From a virus, in IMG/VR virus record IMGVR_UViG_3300035698_009156, positions 1 to 27,666 of that record: a stretch of DNA of 27,666 nucleotides. One strand, written 5' to 3'. Both the position numbers and the translations under genes were made by a program. The notes beneath the pieces are model-generated. The model was not told the DNA's origin. It did no database searches and saw nothing but the letters and a program-made list of their open reading frames with translations. Below are positions 2,088-6,701 of the stretch, one piece after another. Position 1 is the stretch's first letter, and every line of letters begins with the position of its first letter.

Positions 2088-2840
2088 CTATCTCACTGAA
2101 AGTTTTTCGTCTTGATAAATTCTTGCACCACGCAACTCACGAACACCACCTCTTACAGCCGCCCGTATAGCTTTGTTTAACTCGTCCTCTGTGAAGTATT
2201 CCCGTAAGGCGTTCATATCCAATGCCGCGCGTGAATCTAAAACACCCGTCCATGGCTTTCTATTTGAAGATGTAGAGTAACCACCCCTAGATTTTGCCGT
2301 TACATTTGTAAGTGCGTTATTCAAGATCATGTCTGCTTTTTGCTCTTCTTGAATAGCAGCGCCCATCAACTCTTCGGCTGTATCGTCTATACCAGCCTCG
2401 GCATGTGTGGCAGCTTCGGCAGCAAGTTTGTCTGCTTCTTCTCTGGCTTTACGCGCTATCTCAAATTGCCTCTGGCGCTCTTCCTCTTCTTTCTTTTTAT
2501 TCCACGCCAAAACAGGAGGGCTTGCACCGTTGATAAGCTTATCAATGTCAGCCCATAGACCGTTTTTCCACTTATCCGCCTCTTTTGTGCATTCAAGAAA
2601 CGGCTCTTTTTCCTTTTTAAAAATCTTTTCAACGTCTTTACGAAGCCCTTTAAGCGCTTTGATGTGGTCGGTTACTGCCCCGGCCTGTTCATTGCTCTCA
2701 ATAACTTCTGGTATTTCCTTTTCTGATAAACGCTTTAGTGTCTCTTGCTCATCAGTGTGTGAGGCAAGGCGCTCTTTCAGTACTTCCATTTCAGATGGTG
2801 GGTTATTACCACCTATACTTAATCTACTATTGTGTTGCAT
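2088..2840 (-). CDS. Coiled-coil protein of the recombination module
   Basis: A 250-residue protein from ATG 2840. An in-frame ATG at 2852 exists, but its own second codon GAG is part of the GGAG that sits seven bases ahead of ATG 2840, so 2840 is the better start. The N-terminus carries a GGNNPPSE motif that recurs in phage proteins of this position. Residues about 25-190 are strongly charged and helical with many Glu, Lys and Ala, including KKKEEEERQRQFEIARKARE, predicting a long coiled coil. The C-terminus (KPWTGVLDSRAALDMNALRE onward) looks like a small globular domain ending VRGGVRELRGARIYQDEKL. No enzymatic motif. It overlaps the Rad52 gene by 14 bases and precedes ssb, so it is probably an accessory or scaffold for recombination. 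Function unproven. Confidence 0.7.
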   Translation of the reverse strand: MQHNSRLSIGGNNPPSEMEVLKERLASHTDEQETLKRLSEKEIPEVIESNEQAGAVTDHIKALKGLRKDVEKIFKKEKEPFLECTKEADKWKNGLWADIDKLINGASPPVLAWNKKKEEEERQRQFEIARKAREEADKLAAEAATHAEAGIDDTAEELMGAAIQEEQKADMILNNALTNVTAKSRGGYSTSSNRKPWTGVLDSRAALDMNALREYFTEDELNKAIRAAVRGGVRELRGARIYQDEKLSVR

Positions 2841-3471
2841 GATTTTCTCCATTTAATGGTGTTTGTGATACTGCTATAAGAAACTTTGCGTACCGCTCGT
2901 CAAGCCATTTGTTTTGTTCCTCTGATAGCTTTTGTCTTAAACTGACAACCGACTCCAATCGTGACCAGTCAACAAACTGATTAGGCTCTTTATATGTTCT
3001 AAAGAGCTTTACCTGACCCAGAATCCACTCTTGCTCCGGTGTTTTATCAACACCAACACTTTCTTTCTTCTTGTCGTACAAGGCTAATCCGAATGGGTTA
3101 CCAAAGGTCATAAGAGCGCGTTTCATAGCGTCCGTTTCCGCTTCTTTAATCGCAGACTCATAAGCATCATTGATTTGTTTTGACGCGCCAGACCCGTGAC
3201 CAGTACCCTCACGCACAGAACCGTTCACCTGCACGCGCACCTTTGCCCTAAACGATACAATCCAATTTTGTTTTTCGTTCTGATAGGGTTTGTGATTTTC
3301 GATCAGATCAACAGTCTCCCTTGACCATTCAGCATGACCAAAAATACGATTTGCCTCTGCAATTGAATGCCAACCCTCGATATAATCGCAATTACTAAAC
3401 GGATGCTTTTTTACGTGCTTTGGATCGAGCTTTTTACCAAGCTCTTTGATTTGATCTTCCGATAAACTCAT
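2827..3471 (-). CDS. Rad52/Rad22-family single-strand annealing protein
   Basis: A 214-residue protein recognisable as the Rad52-type annealase family of phages and bacteria. Key segments are KKLDPKHVKK and YIEGWHSIAEANRIFG (residues 13-45), the Trp-Ser-Arg-Glu-Thr-Val stretch near 49-54, FRAKVRVQVNG (74-84), REGTGHGSG (87-95), ESAIKEAETDAMKRAL (105-120) and TFGNPFGLALY (122-132). The C-terminal 80 residues are variable, as expected. The family forms rings that anneal complementary single strands, usually on SSB-coated DNA, in phage recombination. The start at 3471 overlaps the stop of the upstream small ORF as ATGA, with GGGA upstream. SSB lies two genes downstream in the same direction. Confidence 0.93.
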   Translation of the reverse strand: MSLSEDQIKELGKKLDPKHVKKHPFSNCDYIEGWHSIAEANRIFGHAEWSRETVDLIENHKPYQNEKQNWIVSFRAKVRVQVNGSVREGTGHGSGASKQINDAYESAIKEAETDAMKRALMTFGNPFGLALYDKKKESVGVDKTPEQEWILGQVKLFRTYKEPNQFVDWSRLESVVSLRQKLSEEQNKWLDERYAKFLIAVSQTPLNGENHATQ

Positions 3472-3987: not shown

Positions 3988-4262
3988 TACTCTTCTCCCC
4001 ACGTTTGGCCTGTTTCTTCCAAAGCCCGATTCCATATATCCATATCAAGACCCACGGCCTCGTTTATGATTGGTTCTAGTGTCGGGATTTCATCATCGTA
4101 ATCAGTGTCTTTGATTGTCTTTAGACACTTCTCATGTAGACGCTCTAGTGATGCGCTGTGTTTGAATTCACACTCGACCTCTAAAAGCATGATGGCTGTT
4201 TTTAAACTGGCGGCGAGAACGCGCCTTCTTATTTGCCCCTCGGGGGTGTAATCGAATTTCAT
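3987..4262 (-). CDS. Small early protein, unknown function
   Basis: A 91-residue acidic, mainly helical protein: MKFDYTPEGQIRRRVLAASL at the front, then LEVECEFKHSASLERLHEKC and a C-terminal part rich in Asp/Glu ending GQTWGEE. Both ends overlap neighbours by one base (TAATG). I see no membrane segment, metal site or catalytic motif and recognise no family. As the second gene behind the leftward promoter it should be made very early in infection. Confidence 0.6.
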   Translation of the reverse strand: MKFDYTPEGQIRRRVLAASLKTAIMLLEVECEFKHSASLERLHEKCLKTIKDTDYDDEIPTLEPIINEAVGLDMDIWNRALEETGQTWGEE

Positions 4263-4528
4263 TACACAACCCCCATTTCTTGACGGTTTAAGCTGTGCTG
4301 TCCGATGTAATCTTCATACTGATTGCCGTACTTAAGTGTGATTGGCTCGACTGTCTCGCCATCAACACTATCAGCGACAAGTTCCAGTTCGATTTCGTAG
4401 CTACCGAATTGACCGTCTTCAATTAATTGCTGTTCGTAAAATTCCCGAGCCTCGCTTACAACATCGTCACGGTTTGAACCGTCTGTAATGCAAGTCTGCC
4501 CACCTATGATTGAGTATGTTATTTTCAT
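4262..4528 (-). CDS. First gene of leftward early transcript, unknown function
   Basis: An 88-residue, very acidic protein (about 18 Asp/Glu). It begins MKITYSIIGGQTCITDGSNR and carries alternating beta-like stretches such as SYEIELELVADSVDGET and EPITLKYGNQYEDYIG. GGGAAGG lies seven bases upstream of the ATG, a good ribosome site. It is the gene nearest the leftward promoter at 4558-4586, so it is probably the first early product. Its acidity would suit a DNA mimic or host-protein binder, but no recognised motif supports that. Confidence 0.6.
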   Translation of the reverse strand: MKITYSIIGGQTCITDGSNRDDVVSEAREFYEQQLIEDGQFGSYEIELELVADSVDGETVEPITLKYGNQYEDYIGQHSLNRQEMGVV

Positions 4529-4557
4529 GATTGCCTTCCCAAGCTCGTTACAAGATG

Positions 4558-4586
4558 ATAATTACAAGAAAACTTGTGAAGGTCAA
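4558..4586 (-). promoter_or_regulatory. Leftward early promoter (PL-like)
   Basis: On the minus strand TTGACC (4586-4581) is followed by a 17-base spacer and AATTAT (4563-4558), a plausible sigma70-type promoter with 5/6 and 4/6 matches. The spacer is almost filled by the inverted repeat at 4564-4577, so a protein bound there would block RNA polymerase. Transcription would start about 20 bases before the ribosome site of the gene ending at 4528. Confidence 0.6.
4564..4577. promoter_or_regulatory. Operator 1, ACAAG-N4-CTTGT
   Basis: A perfect 5+4+5 inverted repeat with spacer AAAA, sitting between the -35 and -10 hexamers of the leftward promoter. It is one of four perfect copies plus one near copy within 380 bases around the helix-turn-helix gene. 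Confidence 0.75.
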
Positions 4587-4594
4587 GAAAAAAA

Positions 4595-4608
4595 ACAAGA
4601 AAACTTGT
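4595..4608. promoter_or_regulatory. Operator 2, ACAAG-N4-CTTGT
   Basis: A perfect copy with spacer AAAA, 31 bases (about three helical turns) from operator 1 and just upstream of the leftward -35. Same-face placement would allow cooperative binding. Confidence 0.7.
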
Positions 4609-4629
4609 AATTAAATTGCTATACTAAGG

Positions 4630-4658
4630 AAACCCAAGGCATTGCGCGGGGTTTTTTT
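4630..4658 (+). terminator. Rightward intrinsic terminator near the 3' side of the HTH gene
   Basis: AAACCC (4630-4635) pairs with GGGTTT (4649-4654) around a 13-base loop, and the T run extends to 4658. The T run works only for rightward transcripts, yet no rightward gene lies just upstream. It may end an antisense or small RNA, or block read-through into the HTH gene. The stem is only six pairs. Confidence 0.45.
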
Positions 4659-4694
4659 GTTGAAAAATAAGGGGAAAGAGGCTTATATGCTATT

Positions 4695-4709
4695 ATCACT
4701 TGAAGTGAT
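4695..4709. promoter_or_regulatory. 15-bp palindrome just beyond the HTH stop
   Basis: ATCACTT-G-AAGTGAT is a perfect 7+1+7 inverted repeat located two bases beyond the HTH stop codon in the direction of its transcription. It has no U run, so it looks more like a protein-binding site than a terminator. Confidence 0.4.
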
Positions 4710-4710
4710 T

Positions 4711-4869
4711 CTACACAGGATTAGGGATATTTTTATTTTTTTCATTACGCCAATTGTTAATTGCTTGCTGGGTAACGCCAATCTTTTTTGCTAACAACTC
4801 TTCGCTCACGCCTCTTAGGCCGAGGGCGTAGTCCAGTCTTTTAGCAAACGTGTCTAAAGAATCTTTCAT
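4711..4869 (-). CDS. 52-residue Cro/CI-type helix-turn-helix DNA-binding protein
   Basis: A leftward ORF of 52 residues with AGGA seven bases before ATG 4869. It reads as the first four helices of a lambda-repressor-like domain: FAKRLDYALGLRGV (helix 1), SEELLAKKIG (helix 2), VTQQAINNWRNEK (turn and recognition helix, residues 32-44), then KNKNIPNPV and stop. The family normally continues with a fifth helix and, in CI-type proteins, a dimerisation or cleavage domain; both are absent here, and no other frame after the stop continues the fold. It sits between two clusters of identical operators, the place of cI in lambda. Likely role: repressor of both early promoters and regulator of its own, inferred from position. 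It could also be a truncated repressor. Confidence 0.8.
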   Translation of the reverse strand: MKDSLDTFAKRLDYALGLRGVSEELLAKKIGVTQQAINNWRNEKNKNIPNPV

Positions 4870-4880
4870 GTCATAATCCT

Positions 4881-4894
4881 ACAAAATAACTTGT
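4881..4894. promoter_or_regulatory. Operator 5, near-copy of ACAAG-N4-CTTGT
   Basis: ACAAA-ATAA-CTTGT, one mismatch from the repeat, lies just upstream of the HTH ribosome site and 25 bases from operator 3. With operators 3 and 4 it makes a three-site array like lambda OR. Protein bound here would lie in the 5' leader of the HTH gene. Confidence 0.5.
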
Positions 4895-4896
4895 TG

Positions 4897-4925
4897 TGAA
4901 TCTCGACAAGATTTCTTGTTGTCAA
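4897..4925 (-). promoter_or_regulatory. Leftward promoter of the HTH gene (PRM-like)
   Basis: A perfect TTGACA (4925-4920) is followed by 17 bases and GATTCA (4902-4897), a poor -10. Operator 3 fills the spacer, and operator 4 lies four bases upstream of the -35. A consensus -35 with a poor -10 beside an upstream operator is what an activator-dependent maintenance promoter would look like. This is an inference only. Confidence 0.45.
4906..4919. promoter_or_regulatory. Operator 3, ACAAG-N4-CTTGT
   Basis: A perfect copy with spacer ATTT. It lies within the spacer of the leftward promoter for the HTH gene, so it would mediate negative autoregulation. Confidence 0.75.
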
Positions 4926-4947
4926 ATAACAAGTTTTCTTGTAACGT
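4919..4947 (+). promoter_or_regulatory. Rightward early promoter (PR-like)
   Basis: TTGTCA (4919-4924, 5/6 match) then 17 bases and TAACGT (4942-4947, weak -10). The -35 is on the same bases as the -35 of the divergent HTH promoter, because TTGTCAA reads TTGACAA on the other strand. Operator 4 fills the spacer. It would serve the replication genes from 5216 onward. Confidence 0.45.
4929..4942. promoter_or_regulatory. Operator 4, ACAAG-N4-CTTGT
   Basis: A perfect copy with spacer TTTT, 23 bases from operator 3. It lies inside the rightward promoter spacer and immediately upstream of the divergent leftward -35, so one bound dimer could repress one promoter and touch polymerase at the other. 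Confidence 0.75.
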
Positions 4948-4969
4948 TGTTTTGTAAGTCTGATTTCAC

Positions 4970-5198
4970 CCTCATGTCATGAGGATGTTCAGCCCGCAAC
5001 GGGGAAGAGTGGGAATGTATCTATCTAGTTTTAACAAAAGCGCACTACGACAAGGGGCTGCAACCCCTTACCGCGCTATTCGCATTAGTTTCAATAATCA
5101 TAGTTTCGATAATGAGTCAAGGGATTAACCCCCTTCACCATGTCCTTTCAAACGAGAGGGCATGTATGAACGGGTAATAAAAGGCACGTTAGATGCCT
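4970..5198 (+). promoter_or_regulatory. Long structured leader of the rightward early transcript
   Basis: About 260 bases between the rightward promoter and the first gene hold no convincing ORF but many inverted repeats: a 15-bp palindrome CCTCATG-T-CATGAGG (4970-4984); CCCG-CAA-CGGG (4993-5003); AAGGGG/CCCCTT (5052-5069); AAGGG/CCCTT (5119-5135); CATGTCCT/AGGGCATG with one G-U pair (5139-5164); and AGGCA/TGCCT (5182-5198). None has a T run, so they are not plain terminators. A structured early leader could serve antitermination (compare the put RNAs of HK022) or RNA stability; this is inference. Confidence 0.4.
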
Positions 5199-5215
5199 AA
5201 CTACAGAGAGGTTTC

Positions 5216-5404
5216 ATGTCTGGGAAAATCAAGATTACAAAGTATCCGGCTGCGTATGCATTCGGGTACGAGCCACAGTTAAAAAAAATGCATATAGAGG
5301 GTCTGGAAGAACAAAGACCAATGGGCGTTAGTCCGTTTGAAACACCAAAAAACTGGTCATGGGGCTGGCAAGACTGGGCGGTTAAAGATGAAGTTCAAGA
5401 TTAG
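5216..5404 (+). CDS. First rightward early gene, unknown function
   Basis: A 62-residue protein with GAGAGG five bases before the ATG. It opens MSGKIKITKYPAAYAFGYEP, has a Trp-rich end (NWSWGWQDWAVKDEVQD) and overlaps the rusA start by 17 bases. No helix-turn-helix is visible, so it is not an obvious Cro or CII equivalent despite its position. I do not recognise the family. Confidence 0.55.
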   Translation: MSGKIKITKYPAAYAFGYEPQLKKMHIEGLEEQRPMGVSPFETPKNWSWGWQDWAVKDEVQD

Positions 5405-5762
5405 TTTACCCATACCGCCAAGCGTCAACAGAATGTATCGCGGCGGTGGTTACAAAGCACGAGGGCGCAGGTTCAAAGCGCAGAATTACATTAACTGGCT
5501 GGATAAGTGCGAGGAAGTCATGCGGTCATATAAACCCCTCCCGGCATTCAATCAAAGAGCAAAGATCGAGTACGCGTTTTACTACAAGGACAAGAGGGCA
5601 GGGGACAATCAAAATTACCTGAAAGCCCTTACAGATTACATCGTTAAGAAAGAGATTTTAAAGGACGACCGGCACAATATTTTAATCGAAGAAAAGGTTT
5701 ATTTCGCTGGGTATGACAAGGGCAATCCAAGGGTGGAAGTAACGATACGGGGGGTGGAATGA
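5388..5762 (+). CDS. rusA: RusA-type Holliday junction resolvase
   Basis: A 124-residue protein, matching the usual RusA length of about 120, when started at ATG 5388; a further 17 in-frame residues upstream (from 5337) lie inside the neighbour and do not fit the family. Hallmarks: the N-terminal LPIPPSVNRMYR, then RAGDNQNYLKALTDY and LKDDRHN. Aligned by spacing to E. coli RusA, D73 matches D70, K79 matches K76 and D94 matches D91, but the D72 position is Gln75. RusA dimers cut four-way junctions; in phages they resolve recombination or replication intermediates before packaging. The neighbours are a replication initiator on this side and a Rad52-type annealase on the opposite arm. The Gln substitution leaves activity uncertain. 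Confidence 0.88.
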   Translation: MKFKISLPIPPSVNRMYRGGGYKARGRRFKAQNYINWLDKCEEVMRSYKPLPAFNQRAKIEYAFYYKDKRAGDNQNYLKALTDYIVKKEILKDDRHNILIEEKVYFAGYDKGNPRVEVTIRGVE

Positions 5763-5908
5763 TCTGGGTAATTGTAGACGGTCAAAAGATGGAGAAAATA
5801 TCAGACACAAGGCTTTCAAAGGCCGAGGGTCTAGCAAAGATATTGGAATACGCCAAAGAACATAAAATCGGTTTAGACGGAATTGAAATAGGCGAGTTTC
5901 ATGAGTAA
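5759..5908 (+). CDS. 49-residue protein between rusA and initiator
   Basis: The start ATG at 5759 overlaps the rusA stop as ATGA, and the end overlaps the next gene by 8 bases, so it is probably translated by coupling. The sequence opens MIWVIVDGQKMEKISD, followed by one helix (LSKAEGLAKILEYAKEHK) and an acidic end GIEIGEFHE. The strand-helix-strand pattern suggests a small folded protein. No family recognised. Confidence 0.55.
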   Translation: MIWVIVDGQKMEKISDTRLSKAEGLAKILEYAKEHKIGLDGIEIGEFHE

Positions 5909-6701
5909 GGGATGGGTTAAAAGACATAGACAATCTATCGAGTGGGAGTGGTACACAGACGTCGCCACATGCCGCCTATTCGATCACCTAATTCTTACAG
6001 CAAATTACAAGCCCACAAGTTGGCGCGGAATCAACTTGAAAGCAGGGCAGCTTATTGCCGGAAGAAAGTCTTTATCAGAGCAAACGGGCTTATCAGAACA
6101 ACAAATAAGAACTGCATTAAAAAACCTACAAAAAACTGGTGAAATTTCAATGCAATCAACCAGCAAATATTCGGTTGTAACCGTTAATGAGTGGGACGAA
6201 TACCAAACAGAGAGCGACAAGCCAACCAACAAACAACCAGCAAATCAACCAGCAAACAACCAGCAATCTAACCATCAATCAACCACAGATAAAGAAATTA
6301 AAAATACTACTGTTGTTGTTAACGCGCGCGTGGAGGTTTCAAAACAGATCGGAAAAATCCTTGGCTGGGAGAATAATCCGAACTGGTTTGGAGATTACTC
6401 CAGGCTTGAGCAGTGGTTAGCATCTGGATGGGACCCGGAGAAAGATATTTACCCGACCATCCACCGTTTGATGGGAAAGCGCACTGACCCGCCAAGCACC
6501 TTGAAATATTTTGAACAAGCGATCGCAGACGCTTACGCCTTACGAAAGACACCAACACCGAAAGGAAAAGTTAATGGAAACACTGGAAATAGCAGGACGG
6601 GAAGCAATCAAAAACCTTCCGTTGCAGAGGTCATCGAGCAAGCCCACAGAGAGTTTGGTTGCACGGAAGATGATAACGGACATGGTAGGCCAGTGCTTTG
6701 A
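5901..6701 (+). CDS. Phage replication initiator (winged-helix O-like protein)
   Basis: A 266-residue protein. Residues about 1-105 match the phage replication-initiator N-terminal winged helix: IEWEWYTDVATCRLFDHLI, then WRGINLKAGQLIAGRKSLSE, QTGLSEQQIRTALKNLQKTG and YSVVTVNEWDEYQ. A Gln/Asn/Pro-rich linker (about 108-130) follows, then a C-terminal domain with LGWENNPNWFGDYSRLEQWL and HRLMGKRTDPPSTLKYFEQA. The N-terminal half would bind origin DNA and the C-terminal half recruit helicase or loader, as in lambda O. The linker DNA carries repeated CAACCAGCAA elements that may be the origin. It overlaps the previous gene by 8 bases and the next by up to 128. The exact partner helicase is not in the window, so a host helicase is likely used. 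Confidence 0.8.
   Translation: MSKGWVKRHRQSIEWEWYTDVATCRLFDHLILTANYKPTSWRGINLKAGQLIAGRKSLSEQTGLSEQQIRTALKNLQKTGEISMQSTSKYSVVTVNEWDEYQTESDKPTNKQPANQPANNQQSNHQSTTDKEIKNTTVVVNARVEVSKQIGKILGWENNPNWFGDYSRLEQWLASGWDPEKDIYPTIHRLMGKRTDPPSTLKYFEQAIADAYALRKTPTPKGKVNGNTGNSRTGSNQKPSVAEVIEQAHREFGCTEDDNGHGRPVL
6157..6266. repeat. CAACCAGCAA iterons, candidate replication origin
   Basis: Four exact copies of CAACCAGCAA, at 6157-6166, 6234-6243, 6246-6255 and 6257-6266, lie inside the initiator gene. The last three are tandem at 12- and 11-base steps; the 11-base step breaks the codon frame, so the repetition is at DNA level and not only a Gln/Asn-rich peptide. The position matches the lambda ori inside gene O. 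An AT-rich stretch follows at about 6286-6320. Confidence 0.5.

Follow-up and report, generated by a model that had tools for sequence, protein, structure and literature searches.

How are the early genes controlled in a phage that carries two clusters of one inverted repeat around a single HTH gene of only 52 codons? We asked this of the window, by which we mean the whole 27,666-nucleotide stretch of viral DNA that was analyzed (IMG/VR record IMGVR_UViG_3300035698_009156). The locus is recognizable as an early-gene control region because two operator clusters of the phage 434 type flank one short repressor-like gene. The reading that we favor, with moderate confidence, is that of an immunity-type region built on 434-type operators, in which the short, Cro-like HTH protein alone represses the early promoters and its own gene.

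The original prediction had placed four perfect copies and one near copy of a 14-bp inverted repeat, ACAAG-N4-CTTGT, around a 159-bp HTH gene, and this description held for every site and for the gene, an open reading frame (ORF) on the minus strand between the clusters (positions 4711 to 4869, 159 bp including the stop codon). The left cluster consists of an outer site (4564 to 4577) and, 31 bp from it, an inner site (4595 to 4608), both perfect and both reading ACAAGAAAACTTGT. In the right cluster, the site nearest the HTH gene (4881 to 4894, ACAAAATAACTTGT) has one mismatch to ACAAG-N4-CTTGT and is a perfect ACAA-N6-TTGT, while the middle site (4906 to 4919, ACAAGATTTCTTGT), which abuts a TTGACA on the minus strand, and the outer site (4929 to 4942, ACAAGTTTTCTTGT) are perfect; the spacing here is 25 and 23 bp. 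All five operators share the form ACAA-N6-TTGT. The perfect repeat occurs in the whole record only at 4564, 4595, 4906, and 4929, and in dinucleotide-preserving shuffles of positions 4550 to 4960, the mean number of perfect sites was 0.001 per shuffle and the maximum was one, with two sites in 0 of 5,000 shuffles.

These sites had been described as unrelated to those of the lambdoid phages. The idea that they resemble no known operator was dropped once the sequence records of phage 434 and Rhizobium phage 16-3 showed ACAA...TTGT operators; since operator sequence, spacing, and recognition-helix residues all match these two phages, the window sites are not unrelated, and by sequence they belong to the 434 branch of lambdoid operators. 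The phage 434 record has right operators starting at 1875, 1897, and 1920 (spacing, 22 and 23 bp), the one nearest cI with a mismatch, and left operators starting at 3049, 3080, and 3103 (spacing, 31 and 23 bp). The window shares with it the ACAA-N6-TTGT operators, a TQQ recognition helix, the 31-bp spacing between two left sites, and a TTGACA adjoining the middle right operator, as OR2 of 434 abuts the -35 element of PR. It differs in that its operators are more symmetric (ACAAG-N4-CTTGT), in that a single 52-residue protein stands where 434 has a 210-residue CI and a 71-residue Cro, and in that, on weak alignment evidence, the HTH gene apparently lies on the cro side of OR. When the right operator region was aligned with that of 434, placing the HTH gene on the cro side gave 56 points and placing it on the cI side gave 35, scores that were reached by 16 and 161 of 300 spacer-shuffle controls, respectively. 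This alignment is only suggestive of a similarity extending beyond the operators, and it points weakly to the cro position for the HTH gene, the reverse of an assignment as CI.

The record of phage 16-3 annotates OL1, OL2, OR1, and OR2 together with the promoters PL, Pr, and Pc; the right operators (ACAACTACAATTGT and TCAAGTACCATTGT) have 6-bp centers and the left ones (ACAATTGCTTGT and ACAATTGATTGT) 4-bp centers. As in the window, a single repressor gene (the C gene, with two pairs of sites in 16-3) lies between left and right ACAA...TTGT operators, PL and PR (putative in the window) diverge, and the recognition helices are nearly equal, TQQAINN in the window protein and SQQAINN in the C repressor. 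Unlike the window protein, the C repressor has 263 residues and a C-terminal domain; the 4-bp centers of the left operators are a further difference, and a third right site is not annotated in 16-3.

The HTH gene encodes a Cro/CI-type (HTH_3) repressor-like protein of 52 residues, MKDSLDTFAKRLDYALGLRGVSEELLAKKIGVTQQAINNWRNEKNKNIPNPV, with an SD-like AGGA 7 nt before the ATG. Its match to Pfam HTH_3 (PF01381) scored 25.6 bits against a cutoff of 23 and covered profile positions 7 to 33 of 55 only, and it also matched PHROG families of transcriptional repressors. The best sequence matches in the PDB were structures of the 434 repressor, weak (E value, 0.1) and over the HTH, in which the Gln-Gln of the 434 repressor aligns with Q34-Q35 of the window protein at the start of the recognition helix. 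In the 434 structures, these glutamines read the ACAA half-site. Further phage matches were weak and fell on the N termini of CI repressors; a Foldseek search returned general HTH matches only, none with an E value below 0.001; and no close relatives were found, only five distant viral loci at 37 to 52% over part of the protein. The nearest HTH relatives found are the CI and Cro of locus L034 (IMG/VR 2847754586), where, as in the window, there is a triple ACAA-N6-TTGT cluster (spacing, 23 and 24 bp), flanked by a CI and a Cro gene that diverge from it and each encode TQQ. In contrast to the window, L034 encodes a full CI (a 170-aa ORF) and a Cro of 70 residues. The window protein is 41% identical to this Cro and has a tryptophan after QQxIxx, as do Cro-like proteins of other loci, and it scored, weakly, against Pfam P22_Cro and YdaS; judged by these features, it resembles Cro more than CI.

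Operator type, helix code, and layout are thus all of a known kind, and the odd point is the truncated protein. In the 434 repressor and Cro, helices 4 and 5 round off the domain and supply the dimer interface; in the repressor, the loop after helix 4, together with helices 4 and 5, completes the core and makes the dimer contact. The AlphaFold2 model of the window protein has three helices only (mean pLDDT, 72), and by both alignment and model the protein ends at the point expected for the start of helix 4, leaving the five-helix domain incomplete. Neither a plausible remainder of the domain (helices 4 and 5) nor a C-terminal remnant was found downstream of the stop in any frame, and only about 100 bp separate the stop from the left operators. 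For these reasons, the short gene is not explained by a simple nonsense mutation and should encode a minimal repressor, unless it is a remnant.

We then scanned other genomes for two ACAAG-N4-CTTGT sites lying 5 to 35 bp apart in viral contigs, which gave 27 stretches, or 5 to 25 bp apart in bacterial genomes, which gave 84, and HTH genes were sought within 400 bp of the pairs with a profile built for this analysis. Gln-Gln (QQ) at recognition positions 1 and 2 was found in 10 of the 17 distinct HTH proteins near pairs in viral contigs, some of which share one phage as its CI and Cro, and in 8 of the 25 near pairs in bacterial genomes, where 10 more had RQ. The background, HTH proteins from loci chosen by neighboring Rad52 or helicase-loader genes, had QQ in 3 of 62 (Fisher P = 3e-6 for the viral and 0.0016 for the bacterial set), and near pairs of an unrelated palindrome, AGAAC-N4-GTTCT, QQ was present in 0 of 6. 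The profile seeds included QQ proteins; the same profile still detected 59 non-QQ proteins. In other phages, the 434-type operator pair is associated with QQ HTH proteins far above background. The clear cases are L026, L021, L024, and L034, in which CI and Cro genes flank the operator cluster, and all other HTH ORFs near ACAAG-N4-CTTGT in viral loci have at least 70 residues. In L210 (terminase 60% identical), ACAA-N6-TTGT sites (ACAAGGTAAATTGT and ACAAGCAATGTTGT) lie on either side of a gene for a full CI with TQQAIMG. The short HTH gene itself was sought among the terminase relatives and was present in none. Among the relatives by helicase loader (L037 to L040), L037 has a small HTH-like gene, but it was rejected, as its palindrome is different and there are no ACAAG sites.

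Other arrangements were also seen. Small SRQTISQIERGDYSPS-type regulators of bacterial genomes (L186, L132, L197, L157, L180, L135, L147, L181, and L192) have an ACAAG-N4-CTTGT pair at or near the gene, suggesting that the same half-site may be read by Arg-Gln instead of Gln-Gln. In L256 (about 4000 to 4830) and L258 (about 836 to 1556), AGAAC-N4-GTTCT pairs lie beside CI/Cro pairs whose recognition helices are of the GTQE and TQ/SQ types, which looks like another operator-helix pairing. Tannerellaceae and Tannerella bins contain tandem arrays with a 23-bp period and an ACAA-N6-TTGT palindrome in nearly every unit, up to 11 copies (L125, 5946 to 6206; L142, 1949 to 2215; L165, 6639 to 6882; L193, 1613 to 1764; L179, 188 to 344), at several places within one bin.

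The prediction that operators 1, 3, and 4 (4564, 4906, and 4929) sit in promoter spacers has weaker backing: a promoter scan picked up the leftward promoter and missed the two right-hand promoters, which have good -35 elements and poor -10 elements by consensus. The putative leftward early promoter (PL-like; 4558 to 4586, minus strand) reads TTGACC-17-AATTAT with a TG before the -10 element, matches the consensus at 9 of 12 positions, and holds the operator at 4564 to 4577 in its spacer. The other two were read from the sequence. A putative promoter of the HTH gene (4897 to 4925, minus strand) combines the -35 element TTGACA (4925 to 4920) with a weak -10 element, GATTCA, around the operator at 4906 to 4919, and a putative rightward early promoter (PR-like; 4919 to 4947, plus strand) combines TTGTCA (4919 to 4924) with a weak TAACGT around the operator at 4929 to 4942. 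The scan found two promoter-like sites, no more than the 2.1 in shuffles. The layout fits divergent early promoters overlapped by operators, with the PL-like site detected and the right-hand promoters weak.

Two possible RNA signals lie in the same region. At 4617 to 4656, on the plus strand, an extended -10-like element (TGCTATACT, 4617 to 4625) next to the operator at 4595 to 4608 runs straight into a hairpin and a stretch of seven Ts. The element faces the 3' end of the HTH gene and could belong to a short antisense transcript or a terminator; the antisense RNA was discarded as a candidate, its hairpin folding hardly better than shuffled sequence (z = -0.99). In the interval from the right operators to the first clear rightward gene (5040 to 5180), the RNA folds better than shuffles (z = -3.45), and an 11-bp hairpin at about 5139 to 5164 may be a leader element or an antitermination site. 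Rfam and tRNA scans gave no match, for this hairpin or otherwise.

The genes on the two sides of the region are of different kinds. On the minus strand, the leftward early operon begins with an 88-aa ORF (4262 to 4528) that has an SD-like GGGAAGG and no Pfam or PHROG match, and it includes a Rad52-type recombinase (2827 to 3471; Pfam Rad52_Rad22, 4e-31), an exonuclease-like protein (2088 to 2852; phrog_10477, 8e-16), and a single-strand binding protein (1642 to 2076; Pfam SSB, 5e-37). The rightward early operon, on the plus strand, encodes a RusA Holliday junction resolvase (5388 to 5762; Pfam RusA, 4e-9) and a DnaD-like helicase loader or replication protein (5901 to 6701; phrog_2514, 4.5e-27), after which terminase, portal, and capsid are encoded on the same strand. 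As annotated, this content fits the split into PL and PR operons seen in lambdoid phages, but the genes are different ones. The DNA of positions 4400 to 5800 showed only a 23-base chance match to annotated phages. At the left end of the record (8 to 247) there is an ORF of repeated AVTEAV/AVTQAV units, which may not be coding on that strand.

If the short HTH protein is the sole early repressor, it would bind ACAA-N6-TTGT with the recognition-helix glutamines Q34 and Q35. Occupation of the left cluster (4564 and 4595) would repress the leftward recombination operon at the PL-like promoter, and occupation of the right cluster (4929, 4906, and 4881) would repress both the rightward replication operon at the PR-like promoter and the HTH gene itself. 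The support in hand consists of the five sites, which have the sequence and spacing of 434 operators, the recognition helix with its QQ, the operator/QQ association in other phages, and the PL/PR-type gene content; from these we infer that the promoters are real, that a protein this short dimerizes and binds, and that it represses. Against a lone autorepressor stand the end of the protein before helices 4 and 5, which form the dimer interface, the failure to find a close relative of this exact gene, and the weakness of the right-hand promoters.

The alternative that survives best is that the HTH gene once encoded a full-length 434/16-3-type repressor, or a normal Cro of about 70 residues, and has since decayed, and that the operators are bound by another protein. 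This would be a repressor whose gene lies either on a part of the phage genome absent from the record or in a resident prophage. We consider this somewhat unlikely. The lack of helices 4 and 5 speaks for it, as do the length of at least 70 residues of all other HTH ORFs near the repeat in viral loci and the state of the record, which has no completeness estimate and is probably a fragment. There is also a precedent, Escherichia phage HK633, in which 434-type operators lie beside a short HTH frame, a truncated 434-type CI of 58 residues, in an otherwise intact region; it differs from the window in that its short CI retains most of helices 4 and 5, its cro is normal, and the truncation is a nonsense codon in a full-length cI. 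Decay is harder to reconcile with operators that are near-perfect and mutually consistent, with an ORF that retains its start, its SD-like site, and an intact recognition helix, and with the short distance to the left operators, which holds no C-terminal remnant.

More doubtful, in our judgment, is a natural repressor of about 50 residues that reads 434 operators with only the first three helices of the 434 fold, lacks the usual dimer interface, and alone controls both early operons. Such a protein would rely on a dimer contact of another kind or on cooperativity transmitted through the DNA at near-perfect palindromes. It is improbable that an error in assembly or sequencing, for example in the A/T runs at 4730 to 4745, cut short a longer, ordinary Cro or CI frame: A-rich runs do precede the stop and no second copy of the region was found for comparison, but neither alternative downstream frame resembles helices 4 and 5 of related proteins, and the interval before the operators leaves no room for a CI.

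A complete lambda-like bistable lysogeny switch, with sites 3 and 4 acting as OR sites in repression and activation, is very improbable: the OL-repressor-OR layout is there and some temperate phages do combine these operators with a full CI and a Cro (L026, L021, L034, and L210), but the record, probably a fragment that may lack a distant second gene, has one HTH_3 match overall, the protein lacks a cleavable C-terminal domain, which is found in no frame, no HTH ORF occupies the cro-operon position right of the operators, and no tyrosine integrase or resolvase was found, an absence that is not conclusive because the record is probably a fragment. Of the two-cluster design originally proposed, the layout over putative divergent early promoters is supported. 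The lambda OR logic, in which site 4 represses the rightward and could activate the leftward promoter while site 3 represses the HTH gene, is not supported, since it requires a pair of competing regulators and a CI that is cooperative and turns on its own promoter, and the product of the one HTH_3 gene in the record has neither a C-terminal domain nor helices 4 and 5.

With the short Cro-like protein as the predicted repressor of both early operons, the predicted 434-type operator specificity, a QQ helix reading ACAA-N6-TTGT, reaches as far as an uncultured phage whose early region is Rad52-based, and the 434-type operator recurs together with QQ proteins in many further phages. Should the 52-residue protein function in its present form, it would be unusually small for a natural protein that reads the classical 434 operator, and it would offer a simple way to test how small a part of the 434 domain suffices.
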